DNA of 31,837 nucleotides, taken from the IMG/VR virus record IMGVR_UViG_3300017746_002081, positions 1 to 31,837 of that record, one strand, 5' to 3'. The notes beneath the pieces were generated by a model, which saw nothing but the letters and a program-made list of their open reading frames with translations, searched no databases and was not told the origin of the DNA. Position numbers and translations under genes: made by a program. This stretch comes from a virus. Below, piece after piece: positions 7,194 through 27,260 of the stretch; within the stretch, counting starts at the first letter, position 1; each line of letters starts with the position of its first letter.

Positions 7194-7222
7194 TTGACTT
7201 TCTGGCAAAATTTGTATATAAT
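7194..7222 (+). promoter_or_regulatory. Sigma70-type promoter TTGACT-N17-TATAAT
   Basis: -35 TTGACT at 7194-7199 and a perfect -10 TATAAT at 7217-7222 with a 17-base spacer. The predicted start near 7229 gives a leader of about 23 bases that includes the AAAGGG ribosome-binding site of the metallopeptidase. Confidence 0.8.
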
Positions 7223-8372: not shown

Positions 8373-9071
8373 ATGAATAATAAGGTTAAAAAATTTCCGT
8401 TGGTAGACATACTATCGGCAAGTTTCGCCGCATATAGAATCAATGGCGACTACTACAGAGAAACTAGACGTTTCGAAGAATCACCTACACAGTTTTCAAA
8501 CAAGGATTGCCTAGTAGAACAATTTAGAAACGACGAACACTTTTCACCACCAGACTGGCAACAGATGACAATCAAAGATGAAGACTTGCAAAATGCAGTT
8601 GCATCAGTTGAATGGATCAATAAAGAAAACACTTTGGCCATAATGGCTGATACGTTATCCGATTACATGAAGAACCTTATTACTTGTCTAAACACACAAC
8701 AGTTAACCAAAGAACAATTTGGTGTTGTTGCAGTTACGCCAAAGATATATTTTGAAGGCAAGAAGAAGAAAGATGTTAAGAAATCTCTTAAAACTAACTT
8801 CTCTGAGTCAAAACACATAAGTACTATTGGAAGTACTTTTCAAGGTGAGTTTACTTTGCATGAAATCAAGTTTGTAGATAAGTTTAGTTGCCACGTACTG
8901 AATGGGTCGTGCAACGGCAACCTAGTTAGCTTTTTTAAGAGCTTCGATCAAACCAAAGAATTACCAAAAGAGAGTACCACCTTTAACATTAAGGCAAAAA
9001 TTAAGAGGCATGGGGAAAACTTTATTACCAAATTCCCTGAAACGATTTTAAATTACGTAAAGATAGGTTGA
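8373..9071 (+). CDS. Unknown protein with OB-fold-like C-terminus (232 aa)
   Basis: The N-terminal half is unrecognised and acidic, with WINKENTLAIMADTLSDYMKN near 80-100. The C-terminal part (about 145-232) looks like a five-strand OB fold: ISTIGSTFQGEF, HEIKFVDKFSCHVL, NGNLVSFFKSF, a linker, then FNIKAKIKRHGEN and ending TILNYVKI. OB folds of this pattern bind single-stranded DNA or RNA; the assignment is by eye. The start has GTGAGG about seven bases upstream and sits behind a good sigma70-type promoter, suggesting early expression. The gene end holds the -35 element of the next promoter. A role in phage nucleic-acid metabolism is plausible but not shown. Confidence 0.75.
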   Translation: MNNKVKKFPLVDILSASFAAYRINGDYYRETRRFEESPTQFSNKDCLVEQFRNDEHFSPPDWQQMTIKDEDLQNAVASVEWINKENTLAIMADTLSDYMKNLITCLNTQQLTKEQFGVVAVTPKIYFEGKKKKDVKKSLKTNFSESKHISTIGSTFQGEFTLHEIKFVDKFSCHVLNGSCNGNLVSFFKSFDQTKELPKESTTFNIKAKIKRHGENFITKFPETILNYVKIG

Positions 9072-9096
9072 CAAAACTGAAGAATTATAGTAATAT
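9068..9096 (+). promoter_or_regulatory. Sigma70-type promoter TTGACA-N17-TAATAT
   Basis: -35 TTGACA at 9068-9073 overlaps the stop of the preceding gene; -10 TAATAT is at 9091-9096. The start falls near 9103, one base before an ATG at 9104 that is in frame with the next gene. Confidence 0.7.
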
Positions 9097-9139
9097 TAAA
9101 ACAATGTCAATCTATTGTAAACTTATTGGAGATAGTACA

Positions 9140-9364
9140 ATGGCGAATCACAAGTTTGTTACAATAGAAGAAGTCCTCGATACAGATGATTGGGGATTGA
9201 TAATTAATAAGAACGGTGAACTGAAAGGTCTTTACGTTCCTAAAGGACAAGAAGACGATGAAGTACCTCAAGCTATAGCGACACTATGCGAAAAGTACTT
9301 TAACGTTAATTGGGCTGATGAGGACGTATTCATGGAGACAGCCGGACAGAACACATTACACTAA
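9140..9364 (+). CDS. Small acidic protein of unknown function (74 aa)
   Basis: A 74-residue acidic protein, mostly beta in character at first (FVTIEEVLDTDDWGLIINKNGELKGLYVP) then helical (AIATLCEKYFNVNW). No family is recognised. The ATG at 9140 is chosen because GGAG lies eight bases upstream. An in-frame ATG at 9104 falls almost exactly on the predicted transcription start and would give a leaderless 86-residue form. The upstream TTG at 9068 is part of the -35 element and is not credible as a start. bS21 follows after nine bases. Confidence 0.7.
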   Translation: MANHKFVTIEEVLDTDDWGLIINKNGELKGLYVPKGQEDDEVPQAIATLCEKYFNVNWADEDVFMETAGQNTLH

Positions 9365-13173: not shown

Positions 13174-13191
13174 TTTAGTTTCTTAGTTTTT

Positions 13192-13230
13192 AAAAAGGGC
13201 CGATCATTCATTTGTTCGGCCTTTTTTTTT
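13192..13230 (+). terminator. Intrinsic terminator after the HTH-like gene
   Basis: GGCCGA (13198-13203) pairs with TCGGCC (13216-13221), extended by the flanking A and T runs, and ends in a run of nine T. It is the clearest rho-independent terminator in the window. Confidence 0.93.
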
Positions 13231-13231
13231 G

Positions 13232-13239
13232 ACTAAATA
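13232..13239 (+). promoter_or_regulatory. Late-promoter-like octamer ACTAAATA
   Basis: ACTAAATA lies directly after the terminator and seven bases before the ATG of the small lipoprotein gene. No Shine-Dalgarno sequence fits in the gap. Confidence 0.5.
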
Positions 13240-13417: not shown

Positions 13418-13446
13418 TTGACAAAACCAAAATAATGCACTATACT
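13418..13446 (+). promoter_or_regulatory. Sigma70-type promoter TTGACA-N17-TATACT for tRNA-Arg
   Basis: A perfect -35 TTGACA at 13418-13423, 17-base spacer and -10 TATACT at 13441-13446. The predicted start lies at about 13453, one base before the mature tRNA 5' end at 13454, so the transcript may need little or no 5' processing. Confidence 0.82.
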
Positions 13447-13453
13447 ATATACA

Positions 13454-13530
13454 CGGCCCATAGCTCAGTTGGATAGAGCGCCAGTTTGCGGAACTGGAGG
13501 TCAGGAGTTCGAATCTCTTTGGGCCGGCCA
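13454..13530 (+). tRNA. tRNA-Arg (anticodon GCG), CCA encoded
   Basis: A full cloverleaf. Acceptor CGGCCCA (13454-13460) pairs with TGGGCCG (13520-13526), followed by discriminator G and genomic CCA (13528-13530). The D arm is AGCTCAGTTGGATAGAGC, with the A after GG that is the Arg identity base A20. The anticodon stem CCAGT/ACTGG encloses TTGCGGA, anticodon GCG; the T arm is AGGAG-TTCGAAT-CTCTT. Bacteria normally read CGC and CGT with an ACG (inosine) tRNA, so GCG is unusual. Confidence 0.95.
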
Positions 13531-23701: not shown

Positions 23702-23762
23702 ATGAGGACTTTAACAACGTCGACCCTCTTTAAATACTCCGCCGTTATAACTGGAGAGAAAT
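23702..23762 (+). promoter_or_regulatory. Structured 5' leader, candidate riboswitch or translation switch
   Basis: Two possible stems. GAGG (23704-23707) pairs with CCTC (23725-23728). CTCC (23737-23740) pairs with GGAG (23753-23756), the Shine-Dalgarno sequence itself, across a 12-base loop containing the palindrome GTTATAAC. Hiding the ribosome site is typical of translational riboswitches. The first stem recalls the GAGG/CCCTC pairing of preQ1-I riboswitches, but the conserved loop and A-rich tail do not match. The downstream gene is QueD-like. Confidence 0.45.
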
Positions 23763-24799: not shown

Positions 24800-25498
24800 A
24801 TGAATTATGTACTATGTCTCAAGCACGGTGACAAATACGGTCCAGAGTACGTAAACATACTTTACAGTATGGTCAAGAGACATACTTCAATCCCTATTGA
24901 GTTTATATGTTTTACAGAAAAGCCACAGGGCATTGATCCAGGCGTACAGATAAGACCAATTCCATTACACCCACAGATTAAAGGTTGGTGGTACAAGCCG
25001 ATGTTCTTTAATCCAGGACTTAACTTTAGTGGTCCTGCTTTGTACATGGACTTGGATATCATTATCTTTAGAAACATCGACAACTTATTTTCTTACAAGC
25101 CAGGCGAGTTCTGTGTTATTAGAGATTTCAACAGAGCTATACAGTCTAACTGGGATCGAATGAACTCTAGTATCTTTAGATTGAACCCAGGACAACACAA
25201 GGTAGTATATGAAAGATTTATGCAGGATCCAGAGTATCATGCAAAACGTTATCATGGAGACCAGGATTGGTTGTATGCTAACGTAAAATCACAGTTTAAC
25301 TTTTGGCCAGACGAATGGATCCAAAGTTATAAATGGGAAATGAGAGGCAGACCAGAAATGAATAGAACCAGTGGCAGAAGAAACTTTGCCATGAAAGGTG
25401 AGCCTACCATTCTACCAGAGACAAGTATTGCAGTATTTCACGGTGATCCAAATCCAAAAGATTGTGTGGACGATTGGTGTCGTGAGAATTGGCGATAA
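24800..25498 (+). CDS. Glycosyltransferase (GT-A fold)
   Basis: A 232-residue GT-A glycosyltransferase. The metal/nucleotide-sugar DxD motif is YMDLDIIIF (D84, D86). The order VLCLKHGDKYGPEYVNILYSMVKRH, IEFICFTE, WWYKPMFF, LYMDLD, then SSIFRLNPG, HGDQDWL and VFHGDPNPKD matches a GT8-like arrangement. It transfers a sugar to an unknown acceptor in the cytoplasm. Its neighbourhood (tail fibres, a second possible transferase) suggests modification of host surface glycans, phage fibres or DNA; which one is open. GGGAGGG precedes the start with a small hairpin between them. Confidence 0.85.
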   Translation: MNYVLCLKHGDKYGPEYVNILYSMVKRHTSIPIEFICFTEKPQGIDPGVQIRPIPLHPQIKGWWYKPMFFNPGLNFSGPALYMDLDIIIFRNIDNLFSYKPGEFCVIRDFNRAIQSNWDRMNSSIFRLNPGQHKVVYERFMQDPEYHAKRYHGDQDWLYANVKSQFNFWPDEWIQSYKWEMRGRPEMNRTSGRRNFAMKGEPTILPETSIAVFHGDPNPKDCVDDWCRENWR

Positions 25499-25503
25499 AC
25501 TGC

Positions 25504-25532
25504 TTGACTTTAACCAAAAAATCTAATATAAT
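25504..25532 (+). promoter_or_regulatory. Sigma70-type promoter TTGACT-N17-TATAAT, leaderless arrangement
   Basis: -35 TTGACT at 25504-25509 and perfect -10 TATAAT at 25527-25532. Six bases after the -10 comes ATG 25539, so the expected +1 base is the A of the start codon. An ATG at 25533 would lie before the transcription start. Confidence 0.82.
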
Positions 25533-25538
25533 ATGACT

Positions 25539-26225
25539 ATGAAAAAACTTTTAAAAACTAAGACATTTCGCATATTCATATATGTACTCATAGCTTTATT
25601 AGGTATGTTTACAACATACGTTTATGGAACTTTCAAGCCTAACTATATTACACTAGATAAACTAAAAGCAAAGTATGAAAAAGCTCTTATACAAGAGTGG
25701 AACAGTTATGGCTTTATTGAACCTAGCATAGAATACAATACGGATTTACAGTTTGTAAAAGCAGTTGGCAGATGTATAGACTTTCTTAATTTACATCTAG
25801 AGCCTGAGAAAAGAATTCACAGAGATATCATTATAGCAATGGCTGTATTAGAAACAGGTTACGGTACTAGTAGGTTTGCCAAAGAGGCAAACAATCTATT
25901 TGGTATTAGAACATGGGATAAGAATACACCACAACTAAAAGCAAAAGAAAATCAAAATGCAGTTTGGGGTGTTAAGAAATATAAGACTAAATGCTTGTCT
26001 GTAAAAAACATGATTGACATTATTAACTCACTTCATGTTTACGAAGACTTTAGAATTGAAAGAGCAAGTCAACTGGAGTCAGGTAAGATTGATATTGACT
26101 CACAGATTGATCACTTGCACAAATGGAGCACCAATCCAGACTATACTAAATTAGTTAAGAACAGAGCTAAAAAAGTTCACACACAATTAGAAGCAAAAGA
26201 AGTTGACATTAAAGCAGAAAAGTAG
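25539..26225 (+). CDS. Bax-like glucosaminidase with N-terminal membrane anchor
   Basis: A 228-residue protein. A basic start and a membrane helix at about 12-29 (FIYVLIALLGMFTTYVYG) form a signal anchor, which places the rest in the periplasm. The catalytic domain is of the Bax/FlgJ-like glucosaminidase type (PF01832): AMAVLETGYGTSRFAKEANNLFGIRTW with the probable catalytic E105, followed by NAVWGVKKY and a substrate-groove region HVYEDFR. It should cut peptidoglycan, so it may be the lysis enzyme in a signal-anchor-release form, or remodel the wall. The ATG at 25539 is used because it coincides with the predicted transcript start; no ribosome site is present. Its end includes the next promoter. 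Confidence 0.83.
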   Translation: MKKLLKTKTFRIFIYVLIALLGMFTTYVYGTFKPNYITLDKLKAKYEKALIQEWNSYGFIEPSIEYNTDLQFVKAVGRCIDFLNLHLEPEKRIHRDIIIAMAVLETGYGTSRFAKEANNLFGIRTWDKNTPQLKAKENQNAVWGVKKYKTKCLSVKNMIDIINSLHVYEDFRIERASQLESGKIDIDSQIDHLHKWSTNPDYTKLVKNRAKKVHTQLEAKEVDIKAEK

Positions 26226-26231
26226 TATAAT
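26203..26231 (+). promoter_or_regulatory. Consensus sigma70 promoter TTGACA-N17-TATAAT, leaderless arrangement
   Basis: Both hexamers are perfect and the spacer is 17. It lies across the end of the glucosaminidase gene. The ATG of uvsE at 26238 is at the predicted +1, with six bases between -10 and ATG, exactly as for the previous gene. Confidence 0.87.
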
Positions 26232-26237
26232 AGTATT

Positions 26238-27260
26238 ATGTTAGAACGTATAGGTTTTGCCTGCAAATATATGCACCCGGATCAGACGCAGAAGAAGAAA
26301 CTGCTAGAAGAGATCCAGCGACCCTTTAACACTCGTAGCACAACCGTACAATGGTTGAATAGGCAGACACGAGATGTAGCAGAACAACGGCTATGGGATA
26401 TCATGGTGCATAACATACAAAGTTTCCATAACTTGATAGAATACGTTGGCGGTTTACGAGATGAGTTGCGAATGGTTCGACTAGGTAGTGATGTACTTCC
26501 TGTTTACACACAGGCAGATTGGTCTTACTACTGGAAGAAGCCAGACGTGATTGCATACTGTGAAACACACTTTGCTAAGGTAGGTGAACTTGCAAGAAAG
26601 CTAGATGTTAGACTTTCTATGCACCCAGGACAATTTACTGTCCTTGCTAGTGACACCCCAGAAATAGTAAATAGAAGTATAGAGGAGTTTGAATATCATG
26701 TTGATTGCATCAGATGGATGGGCTACGGCCAACAATTCCAGGACTTTAAGTGCAACGTCCATATATCCGGTCGCCAAGGTCCAGCCGGTATCCAACGAGT
26801 CCTCCCAAGATTATCTCAAGAGGCGAGAAATACGATTACGATCGAGAACGACGAAATGTCGTGGGGCATCGAAGCAAGCCTCGAACTTGAAAAGGATCTC
26901 GCTCTCGTACTTGACATACACCATCACTGGGTCCGCACAGGTGAATACATACACCCCACCGACGATAGATATCTACGCATAGTAGACAGTTGGCGTGGCG
27001 TTCGCCCTGTTATACACTATTCTGTATCACGTGAAGATCTACTTGTAGGTCATGATCCAGATGTGTTACCTAACATGGACGAACTGCTAGAACAAGGATT
27101 CAAGAAAGCTAAACTACGTGCCCACAGTGATATGATGTGGAATCATGCAGTTAACGACTGGGCATTGACATTTAGACCCACAGCCGACATCATGGTAGAA
27201 TCCAAACATAAGAATTTGGCTAACTCCACACTACTAGAATCAGCATCTGTTTCAAGCTAA
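26238..27260 (+). CDS. uvsE: UV damage endonuclease
   Basis: A 340-residue TIM-barrel endonuclease of the UVDE/UvsE family, which nicks DNA 5' to UV photoproducts and abasic sites, using metal ions. Family signatures are IGFACKYM at the start, MVRLGSDVLPVY, LSMHPGQFTVLAS, VHISGRQGP, ITIENDEMSWG, LVLDIHHHWVRTGE and AHSDMMWNHAVNDW. The His, Glu and Asp ligands for the metal cluster lie in these strands and all seem intact. The length is normal. It starts at the predicted transcription start of a consensus promoter, with no ribosome-binding site. UV repair is an obvious benefit for a surface-ocean phage. Confidence 0.93.
   Translation: MLERIGFACKYMHPDQTQKKKLLEEIQRPFNTRSTTVQWLNRQTRDVAEQRLWDIMVHNIQSFHNLIEYVGGLRDELRMVRLGSDVLPVYTQADWSYYWKKPDVIAYCETHFAKVGELARKLDVRLSMHPGQFTVLASDTPEIVNRSIEEFEYHVDCIRWMGYGQQFQDFKCNVHISGRQGPAGIQRVLPRLSQEARNTITIENDEMSWGIEASLELEKDLALVLDIHHHWVRTGEYIHPTDDRYLRIVDSWRGVRPVIHYSVSREDLLVGHDPDVLPNMDELLEQGFKKAKLRAHSDMMWNHAVNDWALTFRPTADIMVESKHKNLANSTLLESASVSS

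Follow-up and report, generated by a model that had tools for sequence, protein, structure and literature searches.

Predicted leaderless messages from promoters six bases before the start codon in marine phages

In the viral DNA of IMG/VR record IMGVR_UViG_3300017746_002081 (positions 1 to 31,837), two consecutive genes stand so close behind sigma70-type promoters that their mRNAs might carry no leader at all. We refer to this whole stretch of 31,837 nucleotides as the window. The locus raises the question of whether such promoters merely happen to fall near ATG codons in AT-rich DNA, or whether they form a layout that has been selected. We consider it very probable, from the sequence comparisons given below, that the glucosaminidase and uvsE genes are each read from their own sigma70-type promoter into mRNAs that start at the AUG and undergo leaderless translation, and that this is a recurrent, selected layout.

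The two promoters and their genes

The features concerned are as follows:

25504..25532, plus strand: promoter 1, found by sequence match, with -35 TTGACT (25504-25509), a 17-base spacer and -10 TATAAT (25527-25532)
25533..25538, plus strand: ATGACT, the six-base gap between the -10 of promoter 1 and the start codon
25539..26225, plus strand: gene for a glucosaminidase-domain protein with an N-terminal hydrophobic segment (PF01832, 2.4e-14; ORF list), opening with the ATG at 25539
26203..26231, plus strand: promoter 2, with -35 TTGACA (26203-26208), a 17-base spacer and -10 TATAAT (26226-26231), 12/12 consensus matches
26232..26237, plus strand: AGTATT, the six-base gap between the -10 of promoter 2 and the start codon
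26238..27260, plus strand: uvsE, UV damage endonuclease (UvdE; PF03851, 4.6e-40; homologue comparison), opening with the ATG at 26238
9068..9096, plus strand: a weaker promoter-like site, TTGACA-N17-TAATAT, with an ATG at 9104, seven bases downstream

The initial annotation had reported two TTGAC(A/T)-N17-TATAAT-N6-ATG promoters at 25504 and 26203, and both are present at exactly these coordinates. For the glucosaminidase message the +1 is predicted to be A 25539, and for the uvsE message A 26238. Another ATG, at 25533, is in frame with the glucosaminidase and lies directly 3' of the -10, upstream of the predicted +1; a relative, L006, reads ATAACT in place of ATGACT, with ATA where the window has this ATG, and keeps the hexamers and spacing of promoter 1 around an altered spacer sequence. 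The -35 of promoter 2 sits within the 3' end of the glucosaminidase gene, and its -10 immediately 3' of the TAG stop of that gene. The uvsE start is hard to put elsewhere, because the conserved RIGFACKYM of UvsE begins three codons past it, and farther upstream no ATG, GTG or TTG is available before an in-frame TAG is reached at 26223. Anti-SD duplex energies for the two genes are +1.8 and -1.3. Among glucosaminidase relatives, eight bases rather than six separate the -10 from the start in L092, and HTVC008M has AGGAGG and no promoter of the leaderless type.

In TA-led bacterial genes the -10 precedes the start codon by about 12 bases, measured start to start (PMC3160421). Likewise, both window genes have an AUG start codon and a -10 near enough to put the predicted +1 on it. 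They do not have the -10-only promoter of the Deinococcus type, since a -35 (TTGACT, TTGACA) is present at 17-base spacing in each, nor a T4-type late promoter (a TATAAATA box without a -35), as we found TATAATAT and TATAATAG with a consensus -35.

Consensus promoters overall are not enriched in the window (54 found against 64 +/- 8 expected), and the significance of the two sites therefore rests on their exact spacing and recurrence. Other sigma70-type genes of the window had been described as leadered with ribosome sites, which holds for the promoters at 7194, 8315, 12860, 13540 and 23667, whose leaders measure about 21-61 bases and contain SD-like motifs. A third leaderless case had been suggested at 9104, and this start we have dropped: the -10 there is TAATAT (4/6) and ends seven bases before the ATG, and a better start, ATG 9140, is preceded by the SD GGAG, with distant homologues aligning only from about that residue. 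The gene downstream of the 9068 site thus likely starts at 9140 with this SD. The stretch 9068-9364, in which ATG 9104 lies near the predicted +1 and the in-frame ATG 9140 behind an SD, resembles E. coli mRNAs bearing a 5'-terminal AUG plus an SD start (PMC4965119).

Several other elements of the window deserve mention. At 13418-13530, seven bases separate the end of the promoter TTGACA-N17-TATACT from the tRNA-Arg(gcg) gene at 13454, and the tRNA transcript may begin at or beside the first base of the tRNA. A strong intrinsic-terminator-like hairpin at 13190-13234 (GGGCCGAUC...GUUCGGCC, then a T run) surfaced as a weak L20_leader match. A conserved leader RNA extends from a strong promoter to a PTPS/queD-like gene, at 23702-23760 in the window and in several relatives (L007:4743-4812, L028:884-960, L083:4757-4827 and others). 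Its P1 arms covary (GAGG/CCTC, GTGG/CCAC, AAGG/CCTT), as do its P2 arms (AACG/CGTT, ATGC/GCAT, GACG/CGTC), and in sequence it looks like an H-type pseudoknot. An Rfam search of this leader gave no match. Its topology and queD-like neighbour resemble those of preQ1-I riboswitches, and it is possibly an unlisted riboswitch. ATGs lying 6-7 bases past the -10 before queD-like genes were considered as leaderless small ORFs and rejected, as their frame is unconserved and several relatives have no ATG; we assign them to the structured RNA leader.

Spacing and recurrence in related phages

We measured the distance (d) from the end of the -10 in TTG-N20-TATANT sites to candidate ATG starts of called ORFs, ATG only, in 2.0 Mb of sequence made up of 101 stretches, namely the window and contigs reached via uvsE or glucosaminidase relatives. 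Distances in the histogram (2989 candidate starts) are bimodal, with a one-base spike at exactly d=6 (23 starts, two of them supplied by the window) and a wide second mode around 19-45, while the distances 1-5 and 7-18 hold a mean of 0.59 starts each. The Poisson probability of the spike is about 1e-28, or about 8e-10 when only 10 gene families are counted. Mis-ordered, mis-spaced and scrambled decoy motifs gave 0-1 starts at d=6 and no peak, and promoters with 16- or 18-base spacers between -35 and -10 gave only two, against 23 with 17. A direct search of 30 records found the strict pattern at 23 places, including places in near-identical contigs and places before the queD leader RNA, and the backwards-read pattern at none. 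Starts at d=6 belong, among others, to DnaJ (7), to a primase-like protein carrying a Toprim-like domain (2), to ClpP, to a PfkB/RfaE-like protein and to smaller ones; ClpP and the RfaE-like protein were named by reading their sequences.

The two classes of start also differ in what precedes them. An SD-like motif is found at 1/23 d=6 starts versus 77/102 leadered starts (Fisher 1.5e-10), and in about half of the genes without a nearby promoter; the d=6 class thus shares with TA-led genes the lack of an SD before the start. Counting from the end of the -10 in the 102 leadered promoters of these contigs, position seven holds A in 70 cases and G in 11, and position six holds T or C in 70. This is the initiator signature expected for a +1 at the seventh base. 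Since this position is occupied in the d=6 class by the A of ATG, with T or C before it in 22/23, the signature would independently put the +1 on that A. Predicted initiation there is thus supported by the spacing peak at 6, the absence of SD motifs, the initiator offset and the repeated gain or loss of the layout before uvsE.

Comparison of the same genes in related phages, named as a check in the initial annotation, shows the exact layout recurring: 13 of 64 different UvsE homologues have the leaderless geometry and 51 do not, and it is found in other families as well. On the UvsE protein tree the leaderless state needs 12 changes, of which at least 4 are forced by well supported branches, and 12 is not fewer than with shuffled labels. 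So many changes imply that the geometry was gained or lost repeatedly and not inherited as one block. What stays constant among leaderless uvsE copies is the pair of hexamers, 17 bases apart, and the six-base gap; the spacers and flanks vary. Most other copies adjoin or overlap the upstream gene and have no SD, which suggests translational coupling. A comparable contrast is seen in P-SSM2_156, which is leaderless in P-SSM2, overlaps the upstream gene in related viruses and has a short SD leader in S-SCSM1. Many uvsE relatives without a leaderless promoter (L016, L018, L021, L025, L036, L044 and others) carry TTGACA-N17-TATAAT some 45-85 bases ahead of the uvsE start codon, in what appears to be coding sequence of the gene upstream, either as a conserved codon accident or as an internal promoter.

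The pattern also occurs beyond this sample. In IMG/VR, an ORF of 60 or more codons opens at 97 of 128 distinct matches to TTGACA-N17-TATAAT-N6-ATGAA and at 37 of 77 matches to an N9 control; the comparison is of the share opening long ORFs among the matches listed, and the totals are not comparable. When the selected sites are excluded from these loci, d=6 is still prominent among the matches listed (32 starts against 5 and 4 at the neighbouring distances), with part of the excess consisting of ATGATG doublets from the N9 selection (several cases). Among isolates, the d=6 ATG coincides exactly with the annotated start in P-SSM2_036, P-SSM2_156 and Mosig_00122. A pattern search of the HTVC008M, T4, Syn9, KVP40, NCTB and phiKZ genomes gave no match. 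A search of 385 Alphaproteobacteria genomes found the strict pattern 34 times and its reversed control twice, so possible hosts use the pattern too, at far lower density. When we looked for the host of the window phage, the top-scoring genomic match to uvsE fell in a Neomarinimicrobiota assembly, which we did not take as pointing to a host. The contig concerned, L158 (PBPT01000016.1, 335 kb; G031 C57 and C77), carries a close uvsE relative (78%) and is probably a mis-binned large phage; contig C77 repeats its pattern sites in reverse order.

Explanations for the six-base gap

Under the leaderless reading, sigma70 initiation from a host-type promoter would begin at the A of the ATG, separately for each gene, and would presumably use the host RNA polymerase. 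The resulting mRNAs would carry the AUG at their 5' end, with neither leader nor SD, and 70S ribosomes would bind this 5'-terminal AUG directly. The layout may serve a gene that otherwise depends on its upstream neighbour, giving it a promoter of its own within a packed genome. Read-through from upstream could add leadered mRNA, which, having no SD, would be poorly translated unless coupled. At uvsE, reinitiation could contribute because the start lies 12 bases past the glucosaminidase stop.

Chance would suffice if AT-rich DNA simply placed TATAAT near ATG and two examples caught the reader's eye. The genome is indeed AT-rich and its promoter-like sites are, as noted above, not enriched overall; yet the spike stands at one distance only, is missing for decoys and at neighbouring distances, and the layout is repeated on the uvsE tree with differing spacers. 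We regard chance as extremely improbable, and for the phage group it is refuted by the spacing histogram. It might instead be that compact genomes press promoters against the ATG to save space, as the uvsE -35 inside the preceding gene could indicate, with leaderlessness a by-product and no selection for a 5'-terminal AUG. Such packing should yield distances anywhere between 0 and 15, whereas d=7-18 is nearly empty beside the spike at 6, and we think it very unlikely.

A further possibility is that both genes are expressed mainly from upstream as part of an operon, by coupling or reinitiation, with the local promoters playing a minor role. This account fits the location of all genes here on one strand, the gaps of 34 bases (25498 to 25533) and 12 bases (26225 to 26238), and the many uvsE relatives that overlap or adjoin the upstream gene without an SD. 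It does not explain why near-perfect promoters are held at exact spacing although the spacer DNA varies, and a merely internal promoter has no need of a +1 on the A of ATG; we judge it unlikely. The preferred reading remains that of separate promoters and leaderless messages. An extension of it, which we consider unlikely, is that the leaderless genes form a regulated class, with the phage or the stressed host shifting ribosomes or initiation factors towards 5'-AUG mRNAs. If so, genes for repair, chaperone, protease and wall enzymes would stay translated as SD-led translation falls.

Known leaderless systems and marine phages

Leaderless mRNA was first described for phage lambda (cI), an example mentioned in PMC3160421 and PMC9031893, and 70S ribosomes bind a 5'-terminal AUG independently of an SD (PMC9031893). 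Like the cI message, those of the window are predicted to start at the AUG without an SD; unlike it, the messages of the present set follow near-consensus promoters placed before marine phage enzyme genes (repair, chaperone, wall hydrolase), with repeated gain or loss. In Caulobacter, 375 leaderless mRNAs have been described, which are common and well translated (PMC4117421). The present genes resemble these and the TA-led bacterial genes (PMC3160421) in having the -10 about 12 bases before the start, the predicted +1 at the start codon and no SD, but the set is viral rather than cellular and most starts retain a -35 at 17-base spacing. A -10 motif adjoining the ORF also yields leaderless mRNA in Deinococcus-Thermus (PMC12340547), whereas here the -35 is near TTGACA in almost all cases. 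A study of the giant phage AR9 remarks that phage transcripts are often leaderless; the leaders it mapped are of 26-491 bases, and it gives no concrete phage set with the N6 geometry (PMC5312081). In the open-access literature on cyanophages, pelagiphages and jumbo phages we found no matching report of leaderless transcripts. The leaderless mechanism, in which the -10 precedes the start by about 12 bases, is therefore of an already known kind; what appears to be new is a sharply defined leaderless promoter class in marine lytic phages, repeatedly gained or lost in the same gene and standing in front of genes for repair, chaperone, protease and wall enzymes.

Our data point to a two-class promoter organisation in abundant marine phages that is visible from sequence alone, one class having a predicted leader of zero length. 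The layout offers a practical rule for locating start codons and promoters in uncultured phages. As the cultured lytic phages P-SSM2 and Mosig have such genes, leaderless translation during infection is directly testable.
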